This document shows, piece after piece, positions 7,762-49,553 of a stretch of 64,000 bases of DNA (its first letter is position 1; each line of letters starts with the position of its first letter). The stretch is taken from positions 1,674,001 to 1,738,000 of the forward strand of contig NZ_CP045144.1 of the NCBI RefSeq assembly GCF_009223885.1, in the 5' to 3' direction. The notes beneath the pieces were generated by a model, which saw only the letters and a list, made by a program, of their open reading frames with translations, did not search any database and was not told where the DNA came from. The translations under genes and the position numbers were made by a program. The stretch is from Ancylobacter sp. TS-1. Its GTDB lineage: Bacteria; Pseudomonadota; Alphaproteobacteria; Rhizobiales; Xanthobacteraceae.

Positions 7762-7990
7762 GCGGCCCCCGCTCCGTCGGCCGGCGCAGGACCGCAGCCC
7801 GCCGATGCGTGGCGGCTTGCCTTCTGGTTGTCGCCGCACGAGAATAACCGGGAGGAGTTGCCGTCGCGTGACGTCTTTCCTCGACTCGGCCCCCCCGGCT
7901 GTTCAAAGCTGCATGGCATTTCTTTCCGGCGTCCGTCGGCACAGCCCGGAGTGACCAGCGTATGTGCCGACAGCGGGGGGCCTTCCGTCG

Positions 7991-9544
7991 ATGAAGCACG
8001 CGCTTAAGGAAGGCGTCATTTTCCTGCTGGTCGGCGCCATCGTCTTTGCGCTGCTGGTCTCGTTCGACCTCTATGGCGAGCTTCGCGATTTCCTCAGTCG
8101 CCACGACATGTTCCCGCTCGACCATGTGGTGCTGGCGCTGTTCGTGATCGGGGCCTCAGGCTTCGTCTACGGCATGCGGCGGATCAGCGACCTGCGCCAC
8201 GAGGTCCAGCGCCGCGCCGCCGCCGAGACGGCCGCCGATTTTCTCGCCTTCCACGACATGCTGACCCGGCTGCCCAACCGGCATTTCGTCGAGCAGCGGC
8301 TGCCCGAGGCGGCCCGCAGGGGCGGCTTCAACGCGATGTTCATGCTGGACATCGACAATTTCAAGCAGGTGAACGATCTCGTCGGCCATCACGGCGGCGA
8401 TGCCGTGCTGTCCTCCTTTGCGGAGCGGCTGCGCACGACGGTGCCCTCGGCGCTGGCGGCGCGTATGGGCGGCGATGAGTTCCTCTTGGTGGCCACCGTG
8501 CCGCGCGGCGACATCGCGGCCATGGCGGAACACCTTTCCGACATGGCCCGCCGCCCGCTGAACATCGAGGGCACCGCCATCCAGATCAGCGTGTGCATCG
8601 GCTTTGCCCCGCTTGAAGGCGCCGCGCTGAATGAGGCGATCTTCGCCGCCGACCTCGCCATGCACGAGGCCAAGCGGCATGGTGCGGGGCGGTTCCATCC
8701 CTATCACCCCCGTCTCGGCGACGACCTTACCCGCCGGCTGGCGATCGAGCGCAAGCTGCGCACCGCCATAACCGACGACCTGATCGACGCGCATTTCCAG
8801 CCGCTGGTCCAGTTGAGCGACCGCCGGGTGTACGGTTTCGAGGCGCTCGCCCGCTGGCAACTGGACGACGGCACCCAGGTGCCGCCGGACCTGTTCATCC
8901 GCGTCGCCGAGCAGGCCGGCCTGATCACCGACCTGTCGAACCGGCTGCTGCGCAAGGCCAGCACCCAGGCCCTGAAATGGCCGGGCGAGATCATGGTCGC
9001 CTTCAACATCTCGCCGCCGCAGCTCAGCGACGGGCTCATCGCCGGCCGCATCCTCGCCATCCTGCGGGAAGTCGGGCTGCCGCCGCATCGCCTTGCGGTG
9101 GAGCTGACCGAGTCCGCCATCATCGCCGACCTCGATTCGGCCATGCGCACGATCCGCCAGCTCCGGCAGGCGGGGGTGCGCGTCGCCCTCGACGATTTCG
9201 GCACCGGCTATTCCAGCCTGTCGCAGCTCGCCAACCTGCCCTTCGACAAGATCAAGATCGACCGGCAGTTCGTCGCCAACTTCCTCGAGAACGAGAAGCA
9301 GGCGAAGATCGTCAACGCCATCATCGGCCTTGGCCAGGGCCTCGGCATCGCCACGCTGGCCGAGGGCATCGAGACCGAGGCCCAGTACGAGGCGCTGCGC
9401 GCGCTCGGCTGCGATCTGGGTCAGGGCTTCCTGTTCGGGCAGGCGATGCCCGGCCACGCGGTCCCGGCCTATCTCGCCAGCCACGAATCGGTCTCGCCCA
9501 ACGACGCGTCGCCGCCGCCGCGCGCGGCGGCCGGTCACGCCTAG
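7991..9544 (+). CDS. membrane GGDEF-EAL c-di-GMP signalling protein (both domains intact)
   Basis: A 517-residue protein with two N-terminal membrane helices (about 7-25 and 41-61). A GGDEF domain follows with MGGDEF at about 159-164, and then an EAL domain with GFEALARW, AFNISPPQL, VELTESAII, DDFGTGYSSL, KIKIDRQF, LAEGIETEAQ and LGQGFLFG. All the usual phosphodiesterase residues are present and the GGDEF signature is canonical, so it could both make and break c-di-GMP; no RxxD inhibitory site precedes GGDEF. I prefer the ATG at 7991, behind a G-rich run, over an in-frame GTG at 7964. No separate sensory domain is visible. Confidence 0.93.
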   Translation: MKHALKEGVIFLLVGAIVFALLVSFDLYGELRDFLSRHDMFPLDHVVLALFVIGASGFVYGMRRISDLRHEVQRRAAAETAADFLAFHDMLTRLPNRHFVEQRLPEAARRGGFNAMFMLDIDNFKQVNDLVGHHGGDAVLSSFAERLRTTVPSALAARMGGDEFLLVATVPRGDIAAMAEHLSDMARRPLNIEGTAIQISVCIGFAPLEGAALNEAIFAADLAMHEAKRHGAGRFHPYHPRLGDDLTRRLAIERKLRTAITDDLIDAHFQPLVQLSDRRVYGFEALARWQLDDGTQVPPDLFIRVAEQAGLITDLSNRLLRKASTQALKWPGEIMVAFNISPPQLSDGLIAGRILAILREVGLPPHRLAVELTESAIIADLDSAMRTIRQLRQAGVRVALDDFGTGYSSLSQLANLPFDKIKIDRQFVANFLENEKQAKIVNAIIGLGQGLGIATLAEGIETEAQYEALRALGCDLGQGFLFGQAMPGHAVPAYLASHESVSPNDASPPPRAAAGHA

Positions 9545-10535: not shown

Positions 10536-11417
10536 ATGATGGCCGTTCTAGCCGACACGATCGACCCGGCCTTCGAGACCGTCCAGCCGGCAACCCTGAC
10601 CGCGCCGTTCCTGTTCAATTCCCCGCACAGCGGCATCGTCTATCCGCGCAGCTTCGTCGACCAGTCGCGCCTGGAGCTGCCCGTGCTGCGCCGTTCCGAG
10701 GACACGCTGGTCGACCGCCTGTTCAGCGATGTGACCCGCCTCGGCATGGGTTTCATGCGGGCGCATTTCCCGCGCTGCTTCCTCGACGTCAATCGCGAGC
10801 CCTACGAGCTTGATCCGCGCATGTTCGAGGGCCGGCTGCCGGCCTATGCCAATACGCGCTCCATGCGGGTGGCCGGCGGGCTCGGCACCATCGCCCGGAT
10901 CGTCGGCGAGGCGCAGGAGATCTACGGCCGGCGCATCCCGGTCGACGACGCCATCAACCGCATCGAGACGCTCTACAAGCCCTATCACCGCACCCTGCGC
11001 CAGCTGATGGTGCAGATGCAGCGCAGCTTCGGCGTGGCGGTGCTGGTGGACTGCCATTCCATGCCGTCCGGCTGCCAGCGCGACCAGCGCATCGACATCG
11101 TGCTGGGCGACCGCTACGGCACCAGTTGCGCGACGATCATCCCCGACATCATGGAAACCGAGCTGCGCCGGCGCGGCTATACGGTGGTGCGCAACAAGCC
11201 CTATGCCGGCGGCTTCATCACCGAGCATTACGGCAATCCAGCCTCCGGCATGCACGCGGTTCAGATCGAGATCAACCGCGCGCTCTACATGCACGAAGCC
11301 ACCTACGAGCCCGCAGAAAGTTTCCAGACCGTGCGCAGCGACCTGCTCGACATGGCGCTTTCGCTGTCGCGCATCGCCCAGATCGAGCTCGCCCCGCAGC
11401 GGACGGCTGCCGAATAG
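10536..11417 (+). CDS. N-formylglutamate amidohydrolase family protein
   Basis: A 293-residue hydrolase of the N-formylglutamate amidohydrolase family. Landmarks are FNSPHSGIVYPRSF (metal-binding His), HFPRCFLDVNREPYELD, VLVDCHSMPSG, IDIVLGDRYGTSC and GGFITEHYGNP. The family hydrolyses N-formylglutamate or related N-formylamides in histidine breakdown, but this copy lies beside cpdR and not in a hut operon, so its substrate is uncertain. Two adjacent ATGs (10536, 10539) are equally usable. A stem-loop with a short T-run lies 51 bp downstream. Confidence 0.9.
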   Translation: MMAVLADTIDPAFETVQPATLTAPFLFNSPHSGIVYPRSFVDQSRLELPVLRRSEDTLVDRLFSDVTRLGMGFMRAHFPRCFLDVNREPYELDPRMFEGRLPAYANTRSMRVAGGLGTIARIVGEAQEIYGRRIPVDDAINRIETLYKPYHRTLRQLMVQMQRSFGVAVLVDCHSMPSGCQRDQRIDIVLGDRYGTSCATIIPDIMETELRRRGYTVVRNKPYAGGFITEHYGNPASGMHAVQIEINRALYMHEATYEPAESFQTVRSDLLDMALSLSRIAQIELAPQRTAAE

Positions 11418-11699: not shown

Positions 11700-11801
11700 C
11701 AAAAGAAAGAGGCCGCTTACGCACAGCGCAAGCGGCCCAAGTCTAGGGAGGAAACGCCCAAGGAGGGCTGTACGGAGCGACGCCAATCGCTGCGTACGGG
11801 C
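11700..11801 (-). ncRNA. structured small RNA, copy 1 of 3 (alpha-r14/Cuckoo-like)
   Basis: First of three homologous minus-strand RNA genes, about 100 nt. In 5'-3' order: a hairpin (11797-11770 on the plus strand numbering) with stem GTACG-C-AGCGA / TCGCT-C-CGTAC and loop UUGGCG; a GCCC-UCCUU-GGGC hairpin exposing an anti-Shine-Dalgarno loop; a single-stranded UUUCCUCCCUAGACUU; and a 12-bp terminator stem starting GGCCGCTTGCGC, then CUUUCUUUU. The promoter is weak by eye (CTTGAT, 15 bp, CTACAT at 11807-11812). Architecture resembles the alphaproteobacterial alpha-r14/NfeR1 and Cuckoo/CcsR RNAs with CCUCC motifs; that family link is recalled, not tested. Confidence 0.72.
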
Positions 11802-11884
11802 AGAAGATGTAGGTGCATTGCGGAATAATCAAGGCAGGCACTAGGCTTTTCTGGCATACCAAATACGAATTGAACCCCCGGTGT

Positions 11885-11940
11885 GGCATTAATGCCTCAT
11901 GCGGTGGTGCCAAAGCACCATTAAAGGCAGTCTCTGCCTT
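11885..11940. repeat. cluster of three short palindromes
   Basis: GGCATTAATGCC (11885-11896) is a perfect 12-mer palindrome. TGGTGC-CAAA-GCACCA (11905-11920) and AAGGCAG-TCT-CTGCCTT (11924-11940) follow as hairpins with 6-bp and 7-bp stems. They lie upstream of RNA copy 1 and could be part of another RNA or binding sites; I cannot decide. Confidence 0.45.
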
Positions 11941-12499
11941 GACGGGCGTCGGCTGGTCGACCGGGGGGTCGCGATCAGCCGGCGCCCGTTTGCTTTTGGG
12001 CCCTGCCGGCCGCGCGACGACGACGCCCGCCTGCCCGTCGCACCGCCCGCTTGCCGAGGCTGCGCCGGAGCCCGCGCGACGCTGACGCACCTCGCCGGCA
12101 CCCGGCGCCGCAGCCGCCGCTCCCAGGTGAGATGCCCTCCCCATCCCTCCCCGGCTCCGGCGGCACGCCCGGGATCGGCATGCGCGGCGCCGCCGGCCTG
12201 GCGGGATGGCACCCGAATGCCGCGCTAGGTCCCGCAAGGCGCTCTTACCTATGCTCCTGACGCACGCGTCCCGTTGGCCGTCGCACGGCCGCCGGCGCTG
12301 ACATGCGCCGCTCAGGCCCATCCGTGCGCCGGCTGCCTCCAGGATGCGCAGGAGCGCCGGACTACCGAGCGCCAGACAGACTGACACGCCCCTCGCGCGC
12401 AGGACTGTGACAGGTGCGCCTTATGCGGCACGCCTTTGCGCCGGCCGCGCCCTTGCCGGCGCAGCGTCATGAAGCAGATGGGAGGTTGGGGTGGCGTTG

Positions 12500-12601
12500 A
12501 AAAGAAAGAGGCCGCTCGCGTTGCCGGAGCGGCCCAAGTCTAGGGAGGAAACGCCCAAGGAGGGCGGCGGCGACGTGACGCCAATCACGTTGCCGCAACG
12601 C
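12500..12601 (-). ncRNA. structured small RNA, copy 2 of 3 (alpha-r14/Cuckoo-like)
   Basis: Second copy, about 102 nt. The 5' hairpin (12567-12596) has stem GCGGC-A-ACGTGA / TCACGT-C-GCCGC and the invariant loop UUGGCG. The CGCCC-UCCUU-GGGCG hairpin, the single-stranded UUUCCUCCCUAGACUU and a GGCCGCTC/GAGCGGCC terminator (12510-12534) with U-rich tail follow as in the other copies. The stem bases differ from copies 1 and 3 but pairing is kept, which is evidence of selection on structure. A well-formed promoter lies directly upstream. Confidence 0.78.
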
Positions 12602-12606
12602 AATAA

Positions 12607-12635
12607 ACATAGCCACACGACGCGAAAGTGACAAG
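12607..12635 (-). promoter_or_regulatory. sigma-70 promoter of small RNA copy 2
   Basis: On the minus strand CTTGTC (12630-12635), a 17-bp spacer and CTATGT (12607-12612) match the rhizobial housekeeping consensus CTTGAC-N17-CTATAT. The predicted start near 12601 is at the foot of the first RNA hairpin. Confidence 0.65.
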
Positions 12636-12843
12636 CCGGAAACGAAAGAAACGAAACCGACATTTGGTCGCAGGCCTTCGAATGACGAGATTCGCGCATC
12701 GCTCGCACATTTTCCGGCCCGCAGCACGGATCGCCGCCTTCCCGAACGGCAGGCGCCCGCCGCGTACCGCAGCCGCGATCAGCCGCGCGGCGCGACAGGT
12801 CGCGTGCGGTATAGGAAACATCTTGAAATTCAGGAAGTTGCAG

Positions 12844-12944
12844 AAAAGAAAGGGGCCGCTCACGTTGCCGGAGCGGCCCAAGTCTAGGGAGGAAACGCCC
12901 AAGGAGGGCGGCGGTAGGGCGACGCCAATCGCCTTACCGCGCTG
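12844..12944 (-). ncRNA. structured small RNA, copy 3 of 3 (alpha-r14/Cuckoo-like)
   Basis: Third copy, about 101 nt. The 5' hairpin (12911-12940) has stem GCGGTA-A-GGCGA / TCGCC-C-TACCGC and loop UUGGCG. The anti-Shine-Dalgarno hairpin (12896-12910), single-stranded UUUCCUCCCUAGACUU and terminator (stem 12854-12861 / 12871-12878, U-rich tail at 12844-12850) are almost identical to copy 2. Promoter elements GTTGCC (12973-12978), 17 bp, CCATAT (12950-12955) stand upstream. Together the copies suggest a multi-copy trans-acting RNA targeting ribosome binding sites, which is inference. Confidence 0.78.
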
Positions 12945-12949
12945 CAATA

Positions 12950-12978
12950 ATATGGCAGCTTCGCCTCCCGGAGGCAAC
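12950..12978 (-). promoter_or_regulatory. promoter of small RNA copy 3
   Basis: GTTGCC, a 17-bp spacer and CCATAT on the minus strand are positioned like the promoter of copy 2, ending about six bases before the RNA's first stem. Confidence 0.5.
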
Positions 12979-13210: not shown

Positions 13211-13996
13211 ATGAGTGCGGTGGATTTCGAGACTTTCGTGCATGAACTCGCCACCGTCTCCGGTCAGGCCATCCTGCCCTTCTTCCGCACCGCGCTCGGC
13301 GTCGAGGACAAGAGCGGGGGCGCCACCTTCGATCCCGTCACCGCCGCCGACCGCGCCGCCGAGCAGGCGATGCGCACGCTGATCCGCCGCACCTTTCCCA
13401 GCCATGGCGTGCGCGGCGAGGAATTTCCCGACGACGGCATCGACGCCGACTATGTCTGGGTGCTCGACCCGATCGACGGCACCAAGTCGTTCATCTGCGG
13501 CATGCCGGCCTGGGGCACGTTGATCGGCCTGTGCCGACATGGCCAGCCGGTCTACGGCATGATGCACCAGCCCTTCGTGCGCGAGCGCTTCTTCGGCGAC
13601 GGCGCGCAGGCCCGCTATCGCGGCCCGGCCGGCGACCGCCGCCTCTCGGTGCGCGCCTGCGCCGGCCTCGCCGAGGCGGTGATGATGACCACCAGCCCGC
13701 TCCTGATGGATGCCTCCGACCGCGCGCTCTATCAGGAAGTGGAGCGGCGCGTGCGCCTGCCGCGCTATGGCGGCGACTGCTACGCCTACTGCATGCTCGC
13801 GGCCGGCCATGTCGACCTCGTGATCGAGACCAATCTCAACGATTTCGACATCGTGCCGCTGGTGCCCATCGTCGCCGGCGCGGGCGGCCTCGTCACCAAC
13901 TGGGAAGGCGGCGCCGACCTGTCGGGCGGGCGCGTGGTGGCCTCGGGCGACCGCCGCGTCCATGACGAGGCGCTGAAGGTGCTGAACGGCGGCTGA
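13211..13996 (+). CDS. hisN: histidinol-phosphatase of the inositol monophosphatase family
   Basis: A 261-residue metal-dependent phosphatase. The IMPase motifs are clear: DPVTAADRAAEQAM, GEEFPDD (metal-ligand Glu), WVLDPIDGTKSFICG (Asp-Pro-Ile-Asp-Gly-Thr) and the C-terminal VIETNLNDFDIVPLVPI. FICGMPAWGTLIGL after DPIDGT is typical of the HisN subgroup that dephosphorylates histidinol phosphate in histidine biosynthesis, and not of inositol phosphatases. Its neighbourhood with cpdR and the amidohydrolase is also typical in rhizobia. It converges with the next gene, stop codon to stop codon. Confidence 0.88.
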   Translation: MSAVDFETFVHELATVSGQAILPFFRTALGVEDKSGGATFDPVTAADRAAEQAMRTLIRRTFPSHGVRGEEFPDDGIDADYVWVLDPIDGTKSFICGMPAWGTLIGLCRHGQPVYGMMHQPFVRERFFGDGAQARYRGPAGDRRLSVRACAGLAEAVMMTTSPLLMDASDRALYQEVERRVRLPRYGGDCYAYCMLAAGHVDLVIETNLNDFDIVPLVPIVAGAGGLVTNWEGGADLSGGRVVASGDRRVHDEALKVLNGG

Positions 13997-45756: not shown

Positions 45757-47025
<1,269 letters not shown>

Positions 47026-47188
47026 TCAAGTGATCCATGTCAATGGCGTGCGGTTTTTGTGGCTCCGCTGCCGGCGCCGCGCCGCGCGCCCTCCGGTCAT
47101 AAACCGGGTTTGTAACAATTCCTGTAGCCGTCCGCCGGGAAACGTCCTAGAGTTTTCAATGGGAAACGACCAAGGCGACCGGATCACA

Positions 47189-47773
47189 ATGGCAAAATCC
47201 AACGAACCCGTCACCATCAAGAAGTATGCAAATCGCCGTCTCTACAATACCGGGACGAGCACCTATGTGACGCTGGAAGATCTCGCCCAGATGGTGAAGA
47301 ACGGTGAGGACTTCGTCGTTTATGACGCAAAGTCCTCCGACGACATCACGCATTCGGTGCTGACGCAGATCATCTTCGAACAGGAAGGCAAGGGGCAGAA
47401 CCTGCTGCCGATCAACTTCCTGCGCCAGATCATTCGTTTCTACGGCGACAGCATGCAGATGCTGGTACCCCGCTATCTCGACATGTCGATCGAGAACTTC
47501 ACCAAGGAGCAGAGCAATCTGCGCGAGCACTTCTCCAAGACGTTCGGCGTCGGCGGCTTCGGCGTGCTGGAGGATCAGGTGCGCCGCAACATGGAAATCT
47601 TCGACCGCACCTTCAAGATGTTCCTGCCCAATGGCCGGCTCGACGAGACCCAGGGAACGGCGGGAGCCGCGGGGGCAGCGGCACCGGCCGACGATTTCGA
47701 CGAGCTGCGCCGCCAGGTGGCGGAGATGCAGAAGCGGCTGGACCGTCTCGGCGAAGGCGGCAAGAAGGACTGA
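47189..47773 (+). CDS. phaR: polyhydroxyalkanoate synthesis repressor PhaR
   Basis: A 194-residue regulator. The N-terminal DNA-binding domain starts VTIKKYANRRLYNTGTSTYV, the PhaR/PHB_acc_N signature, and continues EDLAQMVKNGEDFVVYDAKS. PHB-granule-binding segments follow (GQNLLPINFLRQIIRFYGDS and YLDMSIENFTKEQSNLREHF). A helical C-terminus (about 160-190, DELRRQVAEMQKRLDRLGEG) may oligomerise. It represses phasin and its own genes until polymer granules titrate it. Another in-frame ATG at 47159 adds ten residues. Confidence 0.96.
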   Translation: MAKSNEPVTIKKYANRRLYNTGTSTYVTLEDLAQMVKNGEDFVVYDAKSSDDITHSVLTQIIFEQEGKGQNLLPINFLRQIIRFYGDSMQMLVPRYLDMSIENFTKEQSNLREHFSKTFGVGGFGVLEDQVRRNMEIFDRTFKMFLPNGRLDETQGTAGAAGAAAPADDFDELRRQVAEMQKRLDRLGEGGKKD

Positions 47774-47825: not shown

Positions 47826-49553
47826 TCAGACTTCGAACGGCCCCTCGGGCGGGACGAGGCTGTCCGCCGGCAGGCCGATGAGCTCGCCCTGAAGATAGGT
47901 GCAGCCCCACTCCACGAGCTGGCGGCCGGTGTCCTCGTCGAGCACCCATTCGGCCACGGTCTCGATGCCGAGCTGGCCGGCGAGGTCGAGCAGCATGCGC
48001 ACGAAGCTGCGGTCGTCCTCCGACTGCATCATGGTGCAGATGAAGCTGCCGTCGATCTTCAGCATGTCGACATGCAGGCTGCGCAGATTGCGGAACGAGG
48101 TGTAGCCGACGCCGAAATCGTCCATCGCCACCCGGCAGCCAAGGCCGTGCAGCCAGGCGATGCGCGAGCCCATGGCGTCCATGTCGGGGATGCTGGACGA
48201 TTCGGTGATCTCGACGATGAGGCGCGGGCCGAGGCCCTCCTGCGTGCCTTCCTCGACGATCTGCCGCCAGGTGGCGTCATGGATCGAGGTCGGCGAGACG
48301 TTGACCGAGAGGCTCAGCCCCGGATTGTCGCGCAGCGCCGCCAGCGCCAGCGTCATCGAGCGGCAGTCGAGCAGCCGCGTCAGGCCGAAGCGGTCGGCGG
48401 TCGGGATGACCGTTCCGCCATCGAAGACGCGCCCATCCCGCCCGGTGATGCGGGCGAGGCATTCATGGAAGGCGATGTCGCGGCTGCCGCCACGCGCGAT
48501 CGGCTGGAAGGCCAGCGACACCCTGTCCTGCCCGAGCGCGCGCACGATCTCGTCGGCGAAGCGCACATTGGCGTGGCGCTCGGCGGCGCGGTCGAGCCCG
48601 GGCGAAAAGAGTTCGAGCGAGCCGCGCGCGTTGCGCCGCGCCCGCTGCAGCGCGTCCTGCGCGTGCGAGAAGATCTCCGACACGGTGCGGGCCTGCCGGG
48701 GCGCCACCAGCCCGCCGGCGGAGATGGTGACGGCCACCGCCCCGGCGCTGGTGCGCGGCGCGGTCAGGTTGACGGCGGCCAGGAAGCGGCGCATGGCGCC
48801 CGACAGTTCCTCGCCCGAACTCGCCCGCAGCAGCAGGCCGAACTTGCTGCCCGAGAAGCGGGCGATCTCCTCGCCCTCGCCGAGCTGGGCGCGCAGGCGC
48901 AGCCACACCACGTCGATCACCTCGTCGGCGACCACGAAGCCGAAAGCGTCGTTGAGAGTGCCGAGCTGGTCGATGCCCACCAGCGCGAAGCCGAACTCGC
49001 GATCCTCGTGAAAGCCGCGCGCGAGATGCTCCTCCAGCAGCCCCGCCAGCCGCTGGCGGTCGGTCTTCGGCTCGACGCCGAGATCCATCGCGATGCGGAC
49101 CGGGCGGCCGACCGAGAGGCGGCGCAGGAAGCCCTCCACCCGCAGCAGCGTGCCGGCGGCGTCGAAATAGGCGACGCCGCGATCCTCGACCCACAGCCGC
49201 CGCTGGCGGCCGCCGGGCGGCAGGGCGAGGCAATAAACCGTCTCGAAATAGCGCGCGCTCGGATCGAGGCCCGGCACCATGTCGAACTGCATGGCGGCGA
49301 GGGCGGCCTCGCGGCGGGAGGCGCCGGAGCCGGCCTCGATCAGCGCGTGATAGTCCGCCCCGCTTCCGGCGGCAGGCAGGCGCTCGCGGCCGAGCACGTC
49401 GGCGACATTGGAACTCCAGCGCAGGCGGTCGTCGTCCAGGGTCCAGCTATAGGCGGTCTTGCCGAGCGCGTGCACGGCTCCCACCACCGTCTCCGGAAGG
49501 AGCGTGGCGTCGACGCCGGTGTCGATCTGGGCGGCCGTCTCAGGCCTCGGCAT
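47826..49553 (-). CDS. EAL phosphodiesterase with degenerate GGDEF domain
   Basis: A 575-residue soluble protein. The first 140 residues look like a PAS-type sensor (TAYSWTLDDDRLRWSSNVAD and VEDRGVAYFDAAGTLLRVEG). The GGDEF site has become FSGSKFGLLL (about 235), so cyclase activity is unlikely. The EAL domain keeps Glu of ECLARI, Asn of LSVNVSPTSI, Glu of VEITESSS, DDFGVGYTSF, Lys of MLKIDGSFI, Glu of ETVAEWVLDE and Gln of YLQGELIG, so c-di-GMP hydrolysis is likely. It converges with phaR, 52 bp apart. Confidence 0.92.
   Translation of the reverse strand: MPRPETAAQIDTGVDATLLPETVVGAVHALGKTAYSWTLDDDRLRWSSNVADVLGRERLPAAGSGADYHALIEAGSGASRREAALAAMQFDMVPGLDPSARYFETVYCLALPPGGRQRRLWVEDRGVAYFDAAGTLLRVEGFLRRLSVGRPVRIAMDLGVEPKTDRQRLAGLLEEHLARGFHEDREFGFALVGIDQLGTLNDAFGFVVADEVIDVVWLRLRAQLGEGEEIARFSGSKFGLLLRASSGEELSGAMRRFLAAVNLTAPRTSAGAVAVTISAGGLVAPRQARTVSEIFSHAQDALQRARRNARGSLELFSPGLDRAAERHANVRFADEIVRALGQDRVSLAFQPIARGGSRDIAFHECLARITGRDGRVFDGGTVIPTADRFGLTRLLDCRSMTLALAALRDNPGLSLSVNVSPTSIHDATWRQIVEEGTQEGLGPRLIVEITESSSIPDMDAMGSRIAWLHGLGCRVAMDDFGVGYTSFRNLRSLHVDMLKIDGSFICTMMQSEDDRSFVRMLLDLAGQLGIETVAEWVLDEDTGRQLVEWGCTYLQGELIGLPADSLVPPEGPFEV

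Follow-up and report, generated by a model that had tools for sequence, protein, structure and literature searches.

Small RNAs of the αr8 family are reported from all Alphaproteobacteria except the Rickettsiales, and are described as carrying UUUCCUCCCU downstream of a weak hairpin and upstream of a terminator, beside an N-formylglutamate amidohydrolase (FGase) gene in most species (PMC12559287). Few members have been characterized so far despite this wide spread. In Caulobacter crescentus, SisA represses its targets through the same 10-mer, UUUCCUCCCU (PMC12559287). Many genera are reported to carry several αr8 copies, some of them adjacent (PMC12559287), and tandem copies are therefore not new as such. 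In Sinorhizobium meliloti, the motif of the regulator PhaR has been defined, and PhaR binds the mmgR promoter in vitro (PMC12542648). To this known family the locus described here adds a triple array that is orthologous across the genus, a hairpin tip that stays constant while its stems covary, a PhaR-box core at each of the three promoters, and, as a candidate, a divergent RNA. Of these, the fixed array of three and the unchanging tip in this lineage look new.

In the window, a 64,000-nucleotide stretch of the Ancylobacter sp. TS-1 genome, three minus-strand copies of ~100 nt span 11701..12942, between a hisN-like gene and the FGase gene. The former (13211..13996, plus strand) belongs to the inositol-monophosphatase family (PF00459) and is best named hisN (TIGR02067, 309.6 bits, cut-off 275.15); the latter (10536..11417, plus strand; PF05013, 234.4 bits) is the classic αr8 neighbor, present here as in most species. 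The initial annotation, which described three homologous small RNA genes in tandem and proposed a covariance search against Rfam, was borne out in sequence and coordinates. All three copies reached RF00519 (suhB, the family of MmgR, αr8, and SisA), with 65.4, 63.2, and 61.2 bits for copies 1, 2, and 3 against a gathering cut-off of 41 bits. The next-best families at a permissive threshold (E up to 1, in a search that hides overlapping matches inside one clan) were SorY with 23.9 bits (cut-off 111) and BjrC68 with 15.5 bits (cut-off 39). Because the RF00519 scores lie above the cut-off, the neighbors are FGase and hisN, and the 10-mer matches the published description, the three copies are αr8 RNAs, not αr14/NfeR1 or CcsR RNAs. 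They share their covariance family with MmgR of S. meliloti, which likewise has three predicted stem-loops and a PhaR/AniA box at its promoter (PMC7143759, PMC12542648) but is described as single-copy (PMC12559287), as opposed to three in tandem here. With SisA-D of C. crescentus they have in common the 10-mer, the weak hairpin before it, the terminator, the FGase gene (adjoined by SisA), and the existence of several siblings with unlike promoters, whereas SisB-D are dispersed and the copies here are neighbors (PMC12559287).

All three copies, by sequence and predicted folds, present a single-stranded UUUCCUCCCU after a weak hairpin, followed by a Rho-independent terminator. Copy 1 (12844..12942, from its predicted start; RF00519 match and fold) comprises hairpin 1 at 12911-12940, hairpin 2 at 12897-12909, the 10-mer at 12886-12895, and the terminator at 12853-12879 plus tail, all on the minus strand. 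The corresponding parts of copy 2 (12500..12599, minus, likewise from a predicted start, RF00519 match, and fold) lie at 12567-12596, 12553-12565, 12542-12551, and about 12510-12535, and those of copy 3 (11701..11797, minus, delimited in the same way) at 11770-11797, 11756-11768, 11745-11754, and 11711-11738. On re-reading, the hairpin-1 stems, the UUGGCG tip, the GCCC-UCCUU-GGGC hairpin, the UUUCCUCCCU stretch, and the GGGCCGCU terminator were as first annotated, and the 10-mer and hairpin 2 are identical across the three window copies. Fold z-scores were -5.64, -5.14, and -4.90, each copy beating all 200 dinucleotide shuffles. A terminator consensus scan found two terminators, at copy 3 only, against a shuffle mean of 2.4, i.e., no excess.

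Exactly three αr8 copies, in one order, were found in 30/30 Ancylobacter loci (the window and 29 congeners; counts omit one false core match in L036), and RF00519 scored above its cut-off in 51 of the 61 genomes searched. In a tree of the 90 array copies plus 19 from 12 named loci, copies 1, 2, and 3 each formed one clade of 30 (support 0.967, 0.977, and 0.997), and the array thus predates these Ancylobacter species. Where Xanthobacter relatives have a second tandem copy, it joined the copy 3 clade with weak support (0.616). Comparison copies from across the order (25 in the promoter set, 25 in the hairpin-fold set) come only from L006 and L065-L087. The two sets differ slightly; entry required an exact match to the core GTTTCCTCCCT, which L084 lacks, and copies too close to a locus end were excluded. 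Searching the genome itself for further αr8 copies yielded two weak matches, both below the 41-bit cut-off. L005 was rejected as a further copy, its match looking by eye like one of terminator type, and a repeat explanation for the intergenic stretch was set aside, as it has no second copy in the genome. Literature searches gave no direct account of the suhB motif or of copies in tandem within this group.

Each copy also has its own conserved upstream region across the 30 loci. The 17-bp promoter spacers first annotated for copies 2 and 3 hold, and copy 1 has one as well (TTGCCT-17-CATATT). On the minus strand, the predicted promoter of copy 1 (12938..12977, from sequence and conservation) has TTGCCT at 12972-12977 and CATATT at 12949-12954; that of copy 2 (12594..12634, from a consensus scan) has TTGTCA at 12629-12634 and TATGTT at 12606-12611; and that of copy 3 (11804..11832, from conservation) has TTGATT at 11827-11832 and CATCTT at 11804-11809. 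The copy 2 promoter alone passes a simple consensus scan (1 found, shuffle mean 0.2).

The PhaR/AniA-box core YGCRNYGCR occurs in 84 of the 90 array promoters (copy 1, 26/30; copy 2, 30/30; copy 3, 28/30), counts that are not independent, as the copies are related and the copy 1 and 2 cores overlap conserved RNA sequence. Among controls, the core appeared in 119 of 1926 background windows taken from these loci and in 27 of 1800 simple shuffles. Elsewhere in the order it was found in 18/25 αr8 promoters, and in this genome also upstream of the three phasin genes. Its position differs among the copies: between -35 and -10 in copy 3 (28/30), at the predicted start in copy 1 (26), and for copy 2 within the spacer in 12 loci and at the start in 25, some loci being counted in both. 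In the window, copy 1 carries the core TGCAGCGCG at its predicted start (12938-12946, minus), copy 2 has the start-site core alone (TGCGTTGCG, 12594-12602, minus), and the copy 3 promoter holds the full 21-nt PhaR motif between and over its -35 and -10 elements (11808-11828, minus). This full motif occurs once in the window, which is weak alone, 17 of 100 shuffles holding at least one. The window also contains phaR itself (46961..47773, plus strand, the true start probably further in; PF07879, PF05233; TIGR01848, 154.4 bits, cut-off 109.45), adjoining thiolase and acetoacetyl-CoA reductase genes, and the genome encodes Hfq along with the three phasins. With such cores at their promoters, the copies may be controlled by PhaR.

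It is probable that the three copies are sibling trans-acting RNAs that repress translation with Hfq through an anti-Shine-Dalgarno sequence, from promoters under the influence of PhaR and carbon status. Each sibling would be transcribed from its own sigma-70-like promoter to its own terminator, and its single-stranded UUUCCUCCCU would pair with the Shine-Dalgarno regions of target mRNAs. This pairing, with Hfq, would lower translation of the targets, predicted to include solute-uptake genes. PhaR would act at the box cores as shown for mmgR of S. meliloti and, given those cores, αr8 output should follow polyhydroxybutyrate (PHB) and carbon status. An unlikely alternative holds that the copies are αr8 by descent, but that two of them play no part of their own, being silent or merely redundant in dosage; this would fit the identity of the 10-mer and hairpin 2 in the window copies and the report that one of six NfeR1 loci is reliably detected in S. 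meliloti (PMC7143759), but orthologues of each copy form a separate clade across 30/30 loci, each with a conserved promoter region of its own, and the siblings SisA-D are expressed differently (PMC12559287). If the three copies do act as separate siblings, they probably respond to different conditions, since their promoters differ in sequence and box position. A genus-wide triple array with PhaR-box cores at different positions lends itself naturally to the question of why siblings of one RNA persist.

Beside copy 3, a conserved near-palindrome, CTGGCATACCA(A/G)ATAC (11848..11868), is present in 25/30 loci, where it could be an operator or promoter part for either of its flanking genes. On its other side lies a candidate divergent structured RNA on the plus strand (11882..11997), shared by 13/30 loci. 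Its terminator hairpin (11943-11988, with a G6 run at 11963-11968 and a U-rich tail) is common to these 13 loci, in which the G6 run is invariant; in the remaining congeners different terminators occupy this place. Only 5 of the 13 loci were recovered by a strict regular expression for this terminator, its spacing being too narrow. Nine of 29 predicted pairs show at least one double change, a raw count with no shuffle baseline, and wobble pairs favor the plus strand by 22 to 3. The element matches no Rfam family.

CrfA is a known sponge of the αr8 family (PMC12559287), and the G6 run that the 13 loci have in this terminator hairpin would give the plus-strand RNA a means of sequestering the αr8 siblings in the same way. 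This role is very improbable, as in these loci duplex energies with the αr8 core were no better than those of dinucleotide shuffles (fractions 0.16-0.85) and the predicted folds pair some of the G run. The 17/30 loci without the G6 terminator, represented by an arbitrary 100-nt slice, gave mixed fractions of 0.02-0.82 (0.02 in L049 and L053, 0.05 in L055). CrfA is described as having a stem loop highly complementary to the αr8 10-mer (PMC12559287); with duplex energies at the shuffle level, no sponge like CrfA was found here. A G-rich stretch at ~12130-12150 on the minus strand was also rejected as a sponge, BLAST of the 29 congener loci covering none of 12040-12480.

The exposed anti-Shine-Dalgarno sequence that had been noted at first is present, the main one being a linker, single-stranded, that separates hairpin 2 from the terminator. 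CcsR (Cuckoo) RNAs are multi-copy, with a CCUCC-type sequence and CCUCCUCCC loops; the CCUCCUCCC loop motif is absent from the three copies. Like these copies, αr14/NfeR1 RNAs are multi-copy and have three hairpins, and, as proposed for these copies, they act in an anti-Shine-Dalgarno mode, but their motif is described as unpaired in all loops (PMC7143759), which does not hold for any of the three copies, where the main one lies in the linker and hairpin 1 is tipped by UUGGCG; αr14/NfeR1 is also a different covariance family. That the copies are αr14/NfeR1 or CcsR RNAs whose several anti-Shine-Dalgarno loops pair with many leaders, a likeness drawn in the initial annotation and in keeping with the exposed CCUCC sequences and the multiple copies, is hardly credible: it names the wrong family, as the family reached is RF00519, far above its cut-off, no αr14- or CcsR-named family matched at E up to 1 in Rfam (overlapping same-clan matches hidden), and the anti-Shine-Dalgarno sequence is not in all loops.

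As αr8 RNAs, the copies would pair through the 10-mer with leaders such as those bearing AGGGAGGAA 1-11 bases before an ATG, of which the genome has 4 (reversed pattern, 0). Across the congeners, AGGGAGGAAAC 1-9 bases before an ATG occurs at 26 sites in 17/30 (reversed pattern, 3). Such predicted sites double as ordinary Shine-Dalgarno sequences, so that their number is no proof of pairing and serves as a lead only; the three target leaders tested were picked for their match. By Pfam, six of the 26 frames behind these sites encode proteins of uptake (three TctC receptors, one ABC ATPase, and a further two solute-binding proteins). Another four are taken as arsenite oxidase large subunits, one by score and three by eye, and the others are mixed or short. 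Leaders of the phasin genes, the expected PHB targets, were not supported as pairing partners, being not clearly above shuffles (fractions 0.077, 0.747, and 0.643). The arsenite oxidase large-subunit gene with the Shine-Dalgarno sequence AGGGAGGAAAC, complementary to the αr8 10-mer, occurs in four Ancylobacter genomes (L181, L190, L197, and L198).

The Rfam match to RF00519 begins 3′ of the 5′ hairpin. This hairpin is nevertheless usual in the αr8 family: it folds at z < -1.5 (mononucleotide shuffles) in 89/90 Ancylobacter copies and in 23/25 distinct other copies of the order, the misses being L087 and one of L072. The compensatory changes claimed for it exceed chance by the fraction of standard pairs. 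Over 10 stem positions in 47 distinct hairpins from the 90 copies, 88.7% of cells hold standard pairs, compared with a mean of 70.9% after shuffling of columns or of whole arms (maxima 75.1% and 78.1%; 1000 shuffles each, which ignore the relatedness of the sequences) and 31-54% when the register is slid, in six such registers. Two more measures show no excess: a double change is seen in 9/10 pairs (shuffle mean 7.3, maximum 9), and further pair types number 23 (shuffle mean 21.7, maximum 27).

On these changing stems the UUGGCG tip (AUUGGCGU) is kept in 90/90 Ancylobacter array copies. Its suspected status as a lineage variant is upheld by an exact scan, which misses near variants, in which the tip and the αr8 core occur together in 14/397 genomes and 3/141 genera of the order: 2 sampled Ancylobacter and 12 from one other family, including 11/11 of one genus. 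Named matches include Xanthobacter, Azorhizobium, Aquabacter, Kaistia, Prosthecomicrobium, Bauldia, and Microvirga lupini; where Xanthobacter, Azorhizobium, and Aquabacter stretches have two tandem copies, one of the two bears the tip. Eight dispersed RF00519 matches above the cut-off, from five congeners (L088-L095), include two with the exact tip (L088, L092), one with UUGGCA (L089), and five without it. A description of this tip element was not found in the literature, the search by exact letters covering few papers. A constant tip on changing stems points to a putative second function of the 5′ hairpin, and the tip may serve as an additional seed or as a site where a protein or partner RNA docks. 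Only tentatively do we propose that it forms a second αr8 recognition element in Ancylobacter, Xanthobacter relatives, and Kaistia, common to siblings with different promoters.

Some further observations concern other elements. Weak matches to SorY, the Rhodobacter singlet-oxygen RNA, extend over hairpin 1 of two copies (23.9 and 21.4 bits at 12502-12596 and 12846-12940, minus strand; cut-off 111), and a distant kinship of SorY and αr8 is possible from this sequence likeness. A weak RF00519 match elsewhere in the genome (L004 1440-1580, C1:1385123-1385207; 31.6 bits) is without the 10-mer and has UUCCCCUCUGG instead. L094 (1540-1700) is a look-alike with UUCCCCUCUGG, its match in G028 reaching 41.1 bits, just above the cut-off; the L004/L094 element looks like a separate conserved small RNA. 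Elsewhere in the window, long frames at 7964-9544 (plus strand) and 47826-49553 (minus strand) read by eye like GGDEF/EAL cyclic-di-GMP proteins.
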